Part shown: positions 9,745 through 18,730 of the stretch, piece by piece
Layout: each line of letters opens with the position of its first letter
Position numbering within the stretch: position 1 is the stretch's first letter
Origin: an uncultured bacterium
GTDB taxonomy: Bacteria; Bacillota_I; Bacilli_A; RF39; UBA660
DNA length: 36,866 nt
Reading direction: 5' to 3'
Assembly: GCA_949288335.1 (NCBI GenBank)
Contig: CASEJU010000080.1
Coordinates: 1-36,866, forward strand
The notes under the pieces: model-generated
Seen by the model: the letters and a program-made list of their open reading frames with translations, nothing else
Databases searched by the model: none
What the model was told of the DNA's origin: nothing
Made by a program: the position numbers and the translations under genes

Positions 9745-9918
9745 AAAAAAGACCCAAAGGGTCGTTTACTAACAAGATAAACCTGCACATCTCGCAGGTG
9801 GGTATCCCACAATGGCTTTAGACTTCTTAATTAAATTAAGCATGAACACCACCATTGATTCTGATTCCCTTATAATATTTAGCGGGTTAAATGTGCTAGC
9901 TTACGATACCTTTAGGTC
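9745..9918 (-). ncRNA. ssrS: 6S RNA
   Basis: About 174 nt. The 5' end GACCUAAAGG (9918-9909) pairs with the 3' end CCUUUGGGUC (9760-9751) in a 10-bp closing stem with one G-U, followed by a six-T run (9750-9745). Further in, GCACA (9896-9892) pairs with UGUGC (9789-9785), and CAAUGG (9857-9852) with CCAUUG (9815-9810), leaving an open central bubble: the 6S rod shape. A local ACCUGC/GCAGGU hairpin on the 3' side of the bubble is also typical of Firmicutes. Bacillus 6S-1 RNA (bsrA) lies between aspS and yrvM; here the RNA lies just before the yrvM homologue and one gene after aspS. 6S RNA binds housekeeping RNA polymerase and mimics an open promoter. Assignment rests on fold and synteny, not on a covariance search. 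Confidence 0.82.
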
Positions 9919-9924
9919 ATTTAT

Positions 9925-10878: not shown

Positions 10879-12180
10879 TTATGGATAAAGTCTATTAGGA
10901 CCCCTAAATAAGAACATTGTTTCCTTAAGTGATGGTAAACCTAACAATAGCATGGTCATTCTATCGATTCCAAGCGCAAATCCTCCGTGTGGTGGACAAC
11001 CGTATTTAAAGAAATCTTTATAAAACTCAATGTCTTTTCCAAGGCCTTTTTCTTTAGCTTGCCCTTCTAATACGTTATAACGGTGTTCTCTTTGCGCTCC
11101 GGTAGTAATTTCTGTTCCTCTCCAAATAAGGTCATAACCTTGAGGAATACCGTCTTTTCTCATGTGATAAAATGGCCTTTTAGTTTTACTAAAACCAGTT
11201 ACAAAGATAAACTCATGCCCGTAAACATCCATTGCATATTCGCTAGTTAGTTTTTCTGCTTCGGCATTCATATCTCCAATATCATGATCAGGCACCTTAT
11301 AACCATATCTTTCACTTAGCTCTTTATACAAATCTTGTAAATCTATCCTTGGAAAAGGAATTGTTGGAATAACAACGTCTACACCATATAATTCTTTAAT
11401 CAAATTACCATATTTTTCTTTTACCGCGGTAAGACCTGAAACTAGAAGTTCTTCTTCTACCTTCATAACGTCTTCATATGAATTAATGTTTGCAAACTCC
11501 AAATCAAACGAAGTAAATTCAGTTGCATGACGATTGGTGTTTGAGTTTTCTGCACGAAAGCAAGGAGCTACTTCAAAGACTCTTTCGTATCCTGCCGCAA
11601 TTGCCATTTGTTTATAAAACTGCGGTGATTGAGCTAGGTATGCTTTGTTTCCAAAATAGTTAACCTCAAAAACTTCACTTCCTGATTCTGATGCCGCTCC
11701 AATTAATTTTGGGGTATGTATTTCGGTAAAATCATTACCGTATAAATACTCTCTCATCGCACGTACAAACTCAGTTTGCACTTTAAATATATTAAAGTTA
11801 ACATCATTTCTTAAATCAAGAAAACGATTATCCATTCTGGTATCAATTAAAGCAGCATCTTTATTAGCTATGTTAATTGGAAGTTCTGGTGCGGATGTAC
11901 TAGTAACTTCAATGGAATCAGGAATTAACTCCATACCTCCCATTTTAACTTTTTCATTTTCTTTTATGGTTCCTGTTACCGTAATGGTTGATTCATTTGT
12001 TAGTTTATCTACTATTTCAACCATTTTTTGGTTTTCTGGAATGGACTTTTCAATCGTAACTTGGATTCTTTTTCCTTCGTTTCTAAGTACGATAAATTGT
12101 ACCCATTGTAAGTTTCTTATTTTTTCAGCAAAACCAGATATTGTTATTTTCTTATTTATATGCTTTTTATAATCTATCAT
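10879..12180 (-). CDS. aspS: Aspartyl-tRNA synthetase, archaeal/non-discriminating type
   Basis: 433 aa class II synthetase. It is far shorter than the usual bacterial AspRS (about 590 aa) because the bacterial insertion (GAD) domain is absent; this is the archaeal/eukaryotic-like form. N-terminal OB-fold anticodon domain about 1-100; motif 1 near 150-160; QSPQFYKQM (184-192); motif 2 with CFRAENSNTNRHATEF (207-222); motif 3 ALGIDRMTMLLLGLPSLKE (402-420), then the RGPNRLYP end. Many such enzymes also charge tRNA-Asn with Asp, which GatCAB then amidates; the sequence alone does not settle that. The ribosome site AAGGAGGAT is built from the last hisS codons; the two genes are 2 nt apart and share the T-box. 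Confidence 0.92.
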   Translation of the reverse strand: MIDYKKHINKKITISGFAEKIRNLQWVQFIVLRNEGKRIQVTIEKSIPENQKMVEIVDKLTNESTITVTGTIKENEKVKMGGMELIPDSIEVTSTSAPELPINIANKDAALIDTRMDNRFLDLRNDVNFNIFKVQTEFVRAMREYLYGNDFTEIHTPKLIGAASESGSEVFEVNYFGNKAYLAQSPQFYKQMAIAAGYERVFEVAPCFRAENSNTNRHATEFTSFDLEFANINSYEDVMKVEEELLVSGLTAVKEKYGNLIKELYGVDVVIPTIPFPRIDLQDLYKELSERYGYKVPDHDIGDMNAEAEKLTSEYAMDVYGHEFIFVTGFSKTKRPFYHMRKDGIPQGYDLIWRGTEITTGAQREHRYNVLEGQAKEKGLGKDIEFYKDFFKYGCPPHGGFALGIDRMTMLLLGLPSLKETMFLFRGPNRLYP

Positions 12181-12182
12181 GT

Positions 12183-13532
12183 TTAATCCTCCTTATGACA
12201 CTTGCAGTTATCACCACAATTACAATTATGCTCTTCATTAGCACTACAGTTACATTCGTCTTCTTCGGTTATGTTTTCATCTAAATAGTATATCAATGCA
12301 TCTAATGAAATAACGTCTTCTTTTTTTGTTTTATTATTTTTTATTTTAACCTCGTTTTGTTTTAAATCATCACTATTTAACACGATGGTAAACTTACTAT
12401 TTAACCTGTCTGCTTGCTTAAATCCTGCTTTTAGACTTCTGTTTAAATAATCAGTTTCAACGATAAAACCATTCATTCTAAGCTCGTTAGTTAGGTATGC
12501 TGCGTATTTTTTTTCATCTTCGTTTACGTATAGCAAGAACAAATCAACGCTTGTTTGAATTGGAATGTTTGCTTTTTCATATTCTAACGCAAGCATTAGT
12601 CTATCAAAACCAGCTGCAAAGCCAATTGAAGGCGTTTTAGGACCACCTAATTGTTCTACTAAGGTGTTATATCTTCCGCCACCTCCAATAACGTTTTGAG
12701 CTCCAAAACCTTCTATTTTGGCTTCTACTTCAAACACGGTGTGATTATAATAATCAAGACCTCTTACAACCGATGGATCAACTACGTATTCTACGCCCAT
12801 AATGCTTAGATATTCTTTTACTTTTTCAAATCTTTCTTTAGACTCATCATTCAAATAGCCAATTGTTTTAGGAGCGGTTTTCATAACTTCTTTATCTTGG
12901 TCAACCTTACAATCTAAAATACGAAGAGGATTTTTTTCTAATCTTTGTTTACAATCATCACATAATTCATCAATATGAGGTTTAAAGTGTTCTACCAAAG
13001 CCTTTCTATAATTATCCCTTGATTCGGTATCTCCAAGCGAATTAATATTAACTTTAATTCCTTTTAAACCGAGTATTTTATATATGTTAACCGCAAGAGA
13101 AATTACTTCTGCATCTGATAAAGGATCATCGCTTCCAATTAGTTCATAACCAAATTGGGTAAATTCACGATATCTTCCTGATTGTGGCCTTTCATAACGA
13201 TACATTGGACAGTTATAATAAAGCTTTATTGGTTGATTATTATTACCATACATTTTATTTTCAATATAACTTCTTACAACTCCCGCAGTACCTTCTGGTC
13301 TAAGCGTCATACTTCTTTTGCCGCGATCAGTAAAATCGTACGTCTCTTTTGTTACTATGTCAGATGTTTCACCAACACCACGGTGAAATAATTCACTTGA
13401 TTCAAATACTGGTACCCTAATAAAGTTATAGTTATATTTTTCCATTACTTCGTCTATTACCTTAGAGACGTACTGCCATCTTTTTGCTTCTTCGCCGTAA
13501 ATATCTTTTGTTCCTTTTGGTTTTGTTATCAT
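12183..13532 (-). CDS. hisS: Histidyl-tRNA synthetase with Cys-rich C-terminal tail
   Basis: 449 aa, class II. Motif 2 region YRYERPQSGRYREFTQFGYE (111-130), the HisRS signature RGLDYYNHTVFE (257-268), GGGGRYN (284-290) and motif 3 IGFAAGFDRLMLALE (303-317) are all present, followed by the anticodon domain (about 325-415). Cys191, Cys194 and Cys208 sit in the insertion usual for Gram-positive HisRS. Odd feature: the last 25 residues form a tail with three CxC pairs (427/429, 437/439, 443/445) plus His446, which looks like a metal-binding appendage; ordinary HisRS ends near 420. AGGAGG precedes the ATG. First gene of the T-box-controlled operon with aspS. Confidence 0.95.
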   Translation of the reverse strand: MITKPKGTKDIYGEEAKRWQYVSKVIDEVMEKYNYNFIRVPVFESSELFHRGVGETSDIVTKETYDFTDRGKRSMTLRPEGTAGVVRSYIENKMYGNNNQPIKLYYNCPMYRYERPQSGRYREFTQFGYELIGSDDPLSDAEVISLAVNIYKILGLKGIKVNINSLGDTESRDNYRKALVEHFKPHIDELCDDCKQRLEKNPLRILDCKVDQDKEVMKTAPKTIGYLNDESKERFEKVKEYLSIMGVEYVVDPSVVRGLDYYNHTVFEVEAKIEGFGAQNVIGGGGRYNTLVEQLGGPKTPSIGFAAGFDRLMLALEYEKANIPIQTSVDLFLLYVNEDEKKYAAYLTNELRMNGFIVETDYLNRSLKAGFKQADRLNSKFTIVLNSDDLKQNEVKIKNNKTKKEDVISLDALIYYLDENITEEDECNCSANEEHNCNCGDNCKCHKED

Positions 13533-13549
13533 ATTTCCTCCTAAATTAT

Positions 13550-13686
13550 AAAAAGAGCCTTAAGTTATAGGGATGAACAAAAGTCCACGGTGCCACCCTA
13601 CTTCACTTTAAGTGCTCTTTATTTTAAATATTTAATTGTCTTAGTTTTATTTATATTGTAAGCTGTCACTTCTTACTAAAACTAAT
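13550..13686 (-). promoter_or_regulatory. T-box riboswitch leader of hisS-aspS
   Basis: The minus strand carries the T-box motif AGGGTGGCACCGTGG (13600-13586). The terminator form pairs AAGAGC (13620-13615) with GCTCTT (13558-13553) and TAGGG with CCCTA, then a T-run; uncharged tRNA would favour the antiterminator. Stem I is very short: TTAGTTTTA (13685-13677) pairs with TAAAACTAA (13649-13641), topped by GTAAG/CTTAC with apical loop AAGTGACAG, which contains GAC. The UGGC contact expects discriminator G73 in the tRNA, fitting tRNA-Asp or tRNA-Asn but not tRNA-His (C73). The leader is only about 135 nt. Confidence 0.85.
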
Positions 13687-13689
13687 AAT

Positions 13690-13719
13690 ATTTTATTATA
13701 TTTTGCATTTATTTGTCAA
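13690..13719 (-). promoter_or_regulatory. Promoter of the hisS-aspS operon
   Basis: TTGACA (13719-13714), 18-nt spacer, TAAAAT (13695-13690). The predicted start, near 13684, falls at the foot of T-box Stem I. Confidence 0.65.
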
Positions 13720-13733
13720 TCTAATTTTAAATT

Positions 13734-16127: not shown

Positions 16128-16571
16128 TTAAAAATCCTTACTATCAATTATAATGGTAACCGGACCGTCATTTATTAAACTAACTTTCATGTCGGCACCA
16201 AACTCTCCTTTTTGAACGTTTATATTATTAGATTCTAAAGCGCTATTAAAGTATTCGTACAACTTTTTTGCATCACTATAATTCAAAGCATCCGTAAAAG
16301 AAGGCCTTCTTCCGTTTAATTTTGCGTACAAAGTAAATTGAGAAATCGACAAAACACCTCCTTTTACATCTTTTAAACTTAGGTTAAGCTTATCGTTTTC
16401 ATCAGAAAATATTCTTAAATTTATTATTTTATCAACCATTTTATCAACGGTTTTAGTGTTATCATTATTAGTAAACGCAACTAGTAAAACAAATCCGTAA
16501 TCTATTTTTCCCACTTTCTTTTCATCTATTGTAACACTTGCTTTTTTACTTCTTTGAACGATAACCTTCAT
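16128..16571 (-). CDS. dtd: D-aminoacyl-tRNA deacylase
   Basis: 147 aa, normal length. DTD removes D-amino acids (and glycine on tRNA-Ala) from mischarged tRNA. The two signature motifs are intact: SISQFTLYA (75-83) and the Gly-cisPro motif NDGPVT (134-139). The ATG overlaps the rel stop codon (TAATG), and GAGGAA lies about 8 nt upstream, so it is translationally coupled to rel, as in Bacillus (relA-yrvI). Confidence 0.95.
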   Translation of the reverse strand: MKVIVQRSKKASVTIDEKKVGKIDYGFVLLVAFTNNDNTKTVDKMVDKIINLRIFSDENDKLNLSLKDVKGGVLSISQFTLYAKLNGRRPSFTDALNYSDAKKLYEYFNSALESNNINVQKGEFGADMKVSLINDGPVTIIIDSKDF

Positions 16572-18730
16572 TATTTATTTCCTCTTTCTACACTAGTTAC
16601 GTAATTTAACTGTCCTATTACGTTTATATATTTATCAAGGGTTTGTTTTGAATCAACCAAAACGTCTAAATCATAAACGTTATAATCAGTGTTCGTAATG
16701 GTATTAACGCTTTTTACACCAACGTTCATGGAAGAAGTTTTAGATATAATATCCAAAAGCAAATTATCTTTTTTCTCGGCGTAAATAATTACGTTTGTAA
16801 CGTATTTTTTATTTACGTTTTCATTCCAATGAACCGGTATTATACGCTCGTTTACATCACATATGTTATGACATGTTCTTCGGTGAATGGTAATACCTTT
16901 TCCTTTTGAAATGTACCCAACTACATCATCACCTTTAACAGGCATGCAGCATCCTCCAAAAGATACCTTTATGTCATCCATTCCATCAACTATTATGTCA
17001 CCTGAGCCTTCCATTACTTTGGATGAATACTTTAATACTTTCTCTAAAGCCCTTTTTTCCTCTTCTTTTTCACCCAATATGGTTTTAATGATACTAGTCG
17101 GGTTATATTTACCTATTCCTATTTCATAGTATAACTCATTTTCACTATTAAGTCCTAAATCATCAAGCGCAATCTTTATTTTTTCATCATCCATGATATC
17201 GTTCGTTGATAATTTTTTTCTTCTGATTGTTTTTAAAAGCAGTTCTTTTCCTTCGGCGGTTGTTTTTTCTTTATCAATTTTACTAAAAAACGCTTTAATT
17301 TTATTTTTAGCACTCGTTGTATATGCTATGTTAACCCACTCTAACGAAGGACCTTTGCTGTTTTTATTAGTGTTTATTTTAACTATGTCTCCATCTTTTA
17401 ATTTATAATCAAGCGGCACGATGTTATTATTAACGATTGCTCCTACCATTTGATGCCCAACACTTGTGTGTACGCGATAAGCAAAATCAACCGGTGTAGA
17501 ACCTACTGGTAATTCAAATACGTCACCTTTAGGTGTATAAACGTATATGTTAGTTGGATTAAAAACTTCGTTTTTTATCGTGTTAACGAACTCTTCTCCT
17601 TCAACTTGTTGTTCGTTTAACTCTATTACCGTTCTAAAAGATTTTAACTTAAGTTCCATGTCGTTTACTTTGTTTACGCCATGCTCTTTATAAGACCAAT
17701 GTGATGCAACACCATATTCCGCTACCTTATCCATTTCATAGGTTCTAATTTGTATTTCAAAAAGTTTTCCGTCAACCCCAAAAACGGTTGTATGAAGGGA
17801 CTGGTATCCGTTTGCCTTGGGACGTGCAATGTAATCTTTAAATCTTTTTGGAACCGGTTTAAACTTAGCATGAATTGCCCCAAGAGCCAAGTAGCATTCA
17901 GAGACGCTATTAACAAAATAACGTAGTGCTAAAATATCATATATTTCGTTAAATGTTTTTCCTTTTTGAAGCTTATTATAAATACTATATACGCTTTTAC
18001 TTCTTCCTTTCATCTCGTGAGGAATATTGTTTTCGTCTAGTATTTTTGATACGCTCTCCATCATTTTATCAACTGATTTATCAAGTTCTTGCCTTGATTC
18101 ACTAAGCTTTTCTAAGATGTCGTTATAAACGTCTGGTTTCCAGTATTTTAAACTTAAATCTTCTAATTCGCTTTTAATGTGATTAATACCAAGACGGTGA
18201 GCGATTGGAACTAATATTTCAAGGGTCTCTTTGGCTTTTTCTTTTCTTTTTTTCTCGGGAATTGCCCAAAGCGTCCTCATGTTATGCAAACGATCTGCTA
18301 TTTTTAATATGATAATGCGAACGTCTCCAGATAAACCAACCAATATTTTTTTATGATAAGAAACCAAAGTCTCGTTATCCGCGGATAAAGAAAGCTTGTT
18401 TATTCTTGATATTCCATCTACTAACTTCTTAATGTCTTCTCCAAACTCTTTTTGGATGTCTTCTATTTTTACGTTAGCAAAATTAATTACATCATGCAAA
18501 AGCGCGGTAGCAAGAGTTTGGGCATCAGCATAAATCTCGGTTAGAATCAAAGCAACGTTTAAAGGATGCAACATATAATCATCACCGGTTAACCTTAATT
18601 GGCCAGCATGAGCCTTACTTGCAAACTCATACGCATGTTTGATTAAGTTTATGTCATCCTCGCTTTTAATGTAAGTTTTAGCCTTCTTTAGTAAGTCATC
18701 TAAAGTGTACGCATCTTCTTTTTGCTTCAA
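16571..18730 (-). CDS. rel: Rel (RelA/SpoT homologue), hydrolase motif degenerate
   Basis: 719 aa long-form stringent-response enzyme. HD domain about 35-160: Arg46, His55, His79-Asp80, Asp146 and Asn150 remain, but the catalytic Glu-Asp of HDxxED is replaced by Asn83-Phe84 (LLHDVINFANV), so (p)ppGpp hydrolysis is probably lost or weak. The synthetase domain (about 230-365) looks intact, with GRSKSVYSIY, RFKD (the RxKD type), YQSLHTTV and EIQIRT. TGS about 410-470; CC/zinc-finger domain with Cys594-Cys595, His616, Cys620; ACT domain about 643-719. Start is TTG at 18730 with AAGGTG 8 nt before; no ATG fits. It begins 17 nt after secDF and overlaps dtd, so the three form one operon. Confidence 0.93.
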   Translation of the reverse strand: MKQKEDAYTLDDLLKKAKTYIKSEDDINLIKHAYEFASKAHAGQLRLTGDDYMLHPLNVALILTEIYADAQTLATALLHDVINFANVKIEDIQKEFGEDIKKLVDGISRINKLSLSADNETLVSYHKKILVGLSGDVRIIILKIADRLHNMRTLWAIPEKKRKEKAKETLEILVPIAHRLGINHIKSELEDLSLKYWKPDVYNDILEKLSESRQELDKSVDKMMESVSKILDENNIPHEMKGRSKSVYSIYNKLQKGKTFNEIYDILALRYFVNSVSECYLALGAIHAKFKPVPKRFKDYIARPKANGYQSLHTTVFGVDGKLFEIQIRTYEMDKVAEYGVASHWSYKEHGVNKVNDMELKLKSFRTVIELNEQQVEGEEFVNTIKNEVFNPTNIYVYTPKGDVFELPVGSTPVDFAYRVHTSVGHQMVGAIVNNNIVPLDYKLKDGDIVKINTNKNSKGPSLEWVNIAYTTSAKNKIKAFFSKIDKEKTTAEGKELLLKTIRRKKLSTNDIMDDEKIKIALDDLGLNSENELYYEIGIGKYNPTSIIKTILGEKEEEKRALEKVLKYSSKVMEGSGDIIVDGMDDIKVSFGGCCMPVKGDDVVGYISKGKGITIHRRTCHNICDVNERIIPVHWNENVNKKYVTNVIIYAEKKDNLLLDIISKTSSMNVGVKSVNTITNTDYNVYDLDVLVDSKQTLDKYINVIGQLNYVTSVERGNK

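Follow-up and report, generated by a model that had tools for sequence, protein, structure and literature searches.

Can a leader of little more than a hundred nucleotides work as a T-box, and which tRNA would it sense when the first gene behind it encodes one aminoacyl-tRNA synthetase and the second encodes another? The question is raised by the hisS-aspS operon on the minus strand of the window, meaning the whole 36,866-nt stretch of DNA analysed here, which comes from an incomplete assembly of 1.08 Mb in 82 contigs. The first gene, hisS (12183-13532 (-); histidine--tRNA ligase by NCBIfam TIGR00442, 492 bits), starts with an ATG at 13532, with AGGAGG at 13542-13537 between the U run of the leader and this ATG. 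After a gap of 2 nt follows aspS (10879-12180 (-)), which scores above cut-off with both NF003483 (453 bits) and TIGR00458 (380 bits) as a non-discriminating-type aspartate--tRNA(Asn) ligase, a type that suggests tRNA-dependent Asn formation. Ahead of the leader lies a promoter-like site (13690-13719 (-); TTGACA at 13719-13714, an 18-nt spacer and TAAAAT at 13695-13690, 11/12 matches), which is weak taken alone, shuffled sequences yielding a mean of 1.0 such site; comparable sites also precede the leaders of the relatives shown.

Read from its letters and predicted folds, the leader (13685-13550 (-), 136 nt, letters re-read) is very probably a minimal transcription-attenuating T-box that would sense uncharged tRNA-Asp and control hisS-aspS. 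It begins with an ultrashort Stem I of 45 nt (13641-13685) that is present in the minimum free energy (MFE) fold and the letters, and consists of an outer helix (13685-13677/13649-13641), an apical helix GUAAG/CUUAC (13676-13672/13662-13658) and an 8-nt bulge on the 3' side (13657-13650). The 9-nt apical loop AAGUGACAG (13663-13671) contains GAC, an Asp codon, at 13667-13665, where the earlier note had placed the specifier. An A/U-rich linker of 26 nt (13615-13640) between Stem I and Stem III forms no pairs as far as 13621 in the MFE fold; by fold and letters, its 3'-terminal part (13620-13615) is already terminator sequence. Neither Stem II nor Stem IIA/B was recognised in this linker from the fold and the letters, with no structure of its own predicted there, and neither an elbow-binding module nor a K-turn was recognised in the leader. 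Directly 3' of Stem I, the stretch GACAAUU (window 13640-13634) is kept in most leaders of the genus, and similar stretches occur in G101, G323 and G317. Stem III (CACU/AGUG, 13604-13614), supported by the Rfam match, the letters and the folds, is the element captured by the terminator, and is followed by the antiterminator (13568-13600; Rfam match, alignment and letters), in which UAGGG at 13600-13596 pairs with CCCUA at 13572-13568 and the T-box bulge UGGC (13592-13595) is complementary to the G73-CCA end of tRNA-Asp.

The earlier note had proposed a compact T-box ahead of hisS-aspS and had called for a search with T-box models and for folding, and the proposal is confirmed by the 45-nt Stem I, the 136-nt leader, Stem III, the antiterminator and the terminator. 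The Rfam model RF00230 scores 36 bits (E 9.6e-7) over 13566-13695, short of its gathering score of 93 bits; among the matches listed, the same genome has at least 10 others at 66-150 bits. RF00230 was never over its cut-off at 20 loci with short-type leaders, and short-form switches are therefore missed by Rfam-based annotation, so that a group of stripped-down T-boxes in uncultured gut Bacilli escapes standard annotation. The MFE fold of 13540-13690 recovers the Stem I that had been claimed (z -2.32; 4/200 shuffles fold as well), and shuffle tests taken leader by leader are individually weak. Some MFE folds give Stem I in the alternative register AAGU[GACA]GCUU; the register GUAAG/CUUAC is preferred because it matches the stem that encloses the specifier, and varies, in long relatives.

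Within the genus, hisS is present in 16/18 genomes, including the one studied here (G011 has none, and the weak match in G016 is its glyS), and every one of these 16 carries the leader, directly upstream of hisS in 13 and about 700 nt further upstream in three (G007, G012 and G009). A gene stands between T-box and hisS in three congeners (L040, L041 and L046); translated in two of them, it gives a 207-aa protein resembling a glutamine amidotransferase. The leader of G009, over the stretch shown, is identical to that of Candidatus Aphodocola excrementigallinarum (L073), which makes Candidatus Aphodocola, assigned by NCBI to Bacilli incertae sedis, the probable genus. GAC and the whole loop core GUGACA are invariant in the 16 leaders, the core being preceded by one to three A (with an extra G in G013) and followed by G, U or A, in apical loops of 8-11 nt. 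Changes on both sides of a pair occur in 3/6 counted outer Stem I pairs and 0/5 apical pairs, and the three counted Stem III pairs are invariant across the 16 sequences. Covariation in this alignment is weak, with 5 cells changed on both sides versus 1.9 in shuffles (6/500 shuffles reach this) and a score of 0.054 for the structure, which two slid controls exceed (0.066). By eye, a pseudoknot-like ACGUUAAUUACGUUAUAAU seems to persist 3' of Stem I in G013 (L052), which may mark an intermediate stage, and several leaders of other genera also seem to retain such a segment there.

This conservation bears on the thought that the leader is a decaying T-box that binds no tRNA and merely sets a fixed level of termination, as might be supposed from its low Rfam score and from the lack of a recognisable elbow-binding module and Stem II. 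Such decay is improbable, since the genus retains the loop, the terminator and the bulge (UGGC in 15/16 leaders, UGGU in G013), and since aspS is preceded elsewhere by the same loop core on unrelated stems.

The terminator (13550-13620 (-), MFE folds) is predicted to form when AAAGAGC together with the Stem III strand pairs with a 3' arm ...GCUCUUUUU, enclosing the antiterminator helix, and its tail is the U run ending at 13550. Its energy is -22.4 kcal/mol versus -13.6 kcal/mol without the 3' arm; a simple terminator scan, which permits loops of 3-8 only, found none. All 16 genus leaders have the same predicted terminator, with GAGC and the Stem III strand paired to the 3' arm that precedes the U run. 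In every one of these folds Stem III is excluded and the antiterminator helix retained inside, so that the element incompatible with the terminator seems to be Stem III and not the antiterminator. A terminator that excludes the antiterminator helix was considered and rejected, the folds of the Asp-type leaders, and of the Gly-type leaders described below, excluding Stem III instead. The predicted folds thus differ from the textbook T-box scheme, in which the terminator breaks the antiterminator helix; in a long T-box of the same genome (contig C16), the terminator appears by eye to reuse the 3' strand of the antiterminator. In the proposed mechanism, uncharged tRNA-Asp would be sensed, the leader thereby attenuating transcription of hisS-aspS, and antiterminator and Stem III would be held together as one unit; with the tRNA charged or absent, the 3' strand would take Stem III and the terminator would form around the antiterminator helix.

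Specificity for tRNA-Asp, as the earlier note had proposed, is well supported by sequence comparison. The specifier GAC has its cognate synthetase gene, aspS, in the operon, and the UGGC bulge fits the tRNA-Asp of the same genome, which has G73 and the anticodon loop CUGUCAC; the same loop and G73 were found in tRNA-Asp of the 11 readable genomes among 16 queried, and this tRNA recurs at 99-100% in 15/18 genus genomes. Above all, the assignment is well supported because the same loop core, on unrelated stems, precedes aspS itself in other genera. The earlier note had staked its reading on there being no His codon in the specifier position and no tRNA-His with G73: the loop holds no His codon, and although tRNA-His is absent among the tRNAs found in the incomplete assembly, that of congener G005 carries C73, a base that cannot pair with UGGC, together with the loop UUGUGGC. 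These observations make it very improbable that overlapping codons let the leader sense both tRNA-Asp and tRNA-His, a reading encouraged by GACAU or GACAC in 51/58 long relatives and by GACAU in congener G005; the loop in the window reads GACAG. Less probable still is sensing of tRNA-Asn, which also has G73 in this genome and would suit the non-discriminating type of AspRS as well as the AAC found in the loop of relative G191, but GAC mispairs with the anticodon GUU at its first letter and is the specifier in 32/33 Asp-type leaders read. Control of hisS-aspS by tRNA-Asp is itself already known, an excerpt of PMC5313534 (citing Gutierrez-Preciado 2009) stating that in hisS-aspS T-boxes the partner of GACAC is mainly tRNA-Asp; the short architecture is the part that appears to be new.

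Similar leaders occur beyond the genus. A short-leader model, built from the genus itself and hence favouring its loop, was searched against 291 genomes of the family and 395 of the class. Reading of 70 family loci, a subset of the places listed, gave three known genus members and 16 further short Asp-type leaders; a motif classifier had divided the 70 into 51 long, 18 short and one without the core, and L265 (G179), which it called long, has the short form and was counted as such. Class-wide, 13/395 genomes match the Asp model, with only G414 outside the family; its locus (L401, another family) has a short Asp-type leader before hisS with a K-turn-like segment and UGGU. The gene after the 16 other-genus leaders, which were picked by eye, is aspS in 11 and hisS in five, and 10/11 of the downstream AspS proteins were checked, eight fitting best as aspartate--tRNA ligase (two of these being fragments under cut-off) and two as the non-discriminating type. 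In 16 hairpins from 12 genera, chosen and registered by hand, 79/80 cells of the apical stems are standard pairs, with 3-5 pair types per position. A short hisS leader in G191 (L370) has AAC, an Asn codon, in its loop, where its congener G292 has GAC. At L331 (G480, another family), a T-box with UGGC has a Stem I of intermediate length whose side bulge contains UGUGACAC; this locus fits neither the Asp-type nor the Gly-type short form, and by BLAST the gene that follows encodes none of HisS, AspS and GlyS.

More distant relatives, with HisS identities of 65-73%, carry long hisS leaders (66 loci, 59 with the core and seven without), and all 59 cores fit a loose 5' T-loop pattern and have A before GACA. 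In G034 the helix that closes the specifier loop is GUAAG/CUUAC, as in the apical helix of the leader in the window. Because this closing helix is identical, the short form looks like the long form minus everything above the specifier loop, and the short leader looks to have been derived from the long one by such a removal.

A core-pattern search found a second ultrashort T-box in the same genome, of Gly-type (contig C24:25529 (-); L149/L223), upstream of an ORF and then glyS. A glyS query over 59 genomes gave the Gly-type core pattern at 24/30 loci, 16 in the genus and eight in other genera of the family; it was unmatched in G009, G017, G027, G022, G049 and G037, of which G027 has the motif with a variant core. 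By eye, leaders of this type have a K-turn-like GCGAUGA...AGC; their apical loop contains UGGAA, their bulge UGGA matches U73 of tRNA-Gly, and no Stem II was recognised in them. Their pair counts show 43 cells changed on both sides versus 12.6 in shuffles (0/500 reach this) and 3-5 in slid controls, and all 24 predicted terminator folds capture Stem III and keep the antiterminator helix. A pairing of UUGGCAA in the glyS leader of the genome studied with tRNA-Gly(GCC) was dropped, the stretch being unconserved in relatives. Over the 395 class genomes, among the matches listed, all 39 above 59 bits with a Gly model lie in the same family; 20 weaker matches examined outside it comprise 14 with an AGAGA/GAGAG motif, four without (L321, L326, L331 and L333) and two without the core. 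One of these, L333 (G053, another family), has a short-looking leader with UGGA directly before a GlyS-like gene; the UGGAA apical loop is absent and a specifier was not found, so that it fits neither the Asp-type nor the Gly-type.

How could so short a Stem I hold a tRNA? GUGACAG (13669-13663) and the anticodon loop of tRNA-Asp, CUGUCAC, are exact reverse complements, and among 26 anticodon loops only that of tRNA-Asp matches GUGACAG 7/7, the next being tRNA-Glu with six and with A73. Likewise, UUGGAA complements positions 33-38 of tRNA-Gly(UCC), and in G024, with a GGC specifier, UUGGCAA is complementary 7/7 to tRNA-Gly(GCC) of G005. The base before the codon (-1) is U in 33/33 short Asp-type leaders (16 genus and 17 others) and in 24/24 Gly-type leaders, versus A in 59/59 long hisS leaders. 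The search behind the 16 other-genus Asp-type leaders required T at -1; a freer check of 18 leaders without elbow motifs, three of them genus members, gave U at -1 in 18/18, with the specifier hairpin among the three best in 15/18. At -2, G prevails in the Asp-type (29/33, with three C and one U) and U in the Gly-type (19/24), a preference that fits C38 of tRNA-Asp and A38 of tRNA-Gly (Fisher tests at genus level p 0.03 and 0.016, the genera not being independent). The chances are about even that pairing extends beyond the codon, as we infer from these matches: U at -1 would pair with A37, A at +1 with U33 and G at -2 with C38, and the resulting loop-loop contact of 5-7 bp (6-7 bp in the genus) would strengthen tRNA binding and replace the missing contacts.

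It is possible, if rather doubtful, that U at -1 and A at +1 instead pair with each other within the loop, presenting the codon as a triloop with only three pairs to the tRNA, the number given for known T-boxes. Some Gly-type loops can shrink to UGGAA or UGGCA, in G034, G024, G097, G229 and G136, and a U-G pair could still form where +1 is G (G075, G209, G145 and G292), both of which suit an intraloop pair, but this would leave unexplained the preference at -2, mostly G with C38 and mostly U with A38, as well as the 7/7 match of GUGACAG.

Set against the four T-box classes described in the excerpted parts of PMC10482949, the leader meets the full definition of none. It resembles class III (ultrashort; for example, Nocardia farcinica ileS) in its short Stem I, apical specifier and lack of an elbow-binding module, but in those parts class III requires Stem II, acts mostly on translation and has a loop of 5-6 nt, whereas the leader has a terminator, a 9-nt loop and no recognisable Stem II. 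As far as the same excerpts go, translational class III T-boxes are those that TBDB names class II, and the likeness to ultrashort class II drawn in the earlier note thus stands for Stem I and fails on the need for Stem II and on the mostly translational action given in excerpts of PMC10482949 and PMC7583486. With class II (B. subtilis glyQS) the leader shares transcription attenuation and the lack of Stem II; the glyQS type, however, has a long Stem I with an elbow-binding module and is described as glycine-specific, in contrast to the 45-nt Stem I with its 9-nt loop. Class I, like class II, has the transcriptional mode in common with the leader, but has a long Stem I with an elbow-binding motif plus Stem II, neither of which is seen here. 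Long hisS-aspS T-boxes (GACAC/GACAU) have the operon, codon and UGGC in common with the leader, but differ in that Stem I is long, the specifier sits in a side loop and the codon is preceded by A, as opposed to an apical specifier preceded by U.

Passages of a 2020 review (PMC7583486) state that in the translational T-boxes tested a truncated Stem I scarcely binds tRNA when Stem II is missing, that transcriptional T-boxes generally need the elbow-binding motif and that every known T-box contacts the anticodon through three Watson-Crick pairs in a row, and they ask whether any T-box can work without a K-turn. A natural leader seemingly without elbow, Stem II and K-turn contacts makes these points directly testable on a short RNA, and could supply a very small tRNA-sensing scaffold. 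In the titles and abstract openings of open-licence literature, a scope outside which most subscription papers fall, no transcriptional T-box with an apical specifier and without Stem II was found. Tentatively, then, and with doubt slightly outweighing confidence, the short leaders may represent a further class of transcriptional T-box. Its members would be built only of a hairpin with the specifier at its tip, Stem III and the antiterminator; 5-7 bp with almost all of the anticodon loop would replace elbow and Stem II contacts, switching would capture Stem III rather than the antiterminator, and at least two tRNAs (Asp and Gly) would be served within a single family of Bacilli with small genomes.

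Around the operon, a 6S RNA (window 9747-9921 (-), 78.9 bits, above its cut-off) lies downstream of aspS, and genes for a D-aminoacyl-tRNA deacylase and a RelA/SpoT protein lie close upstream (window 16128-18730 (-)).
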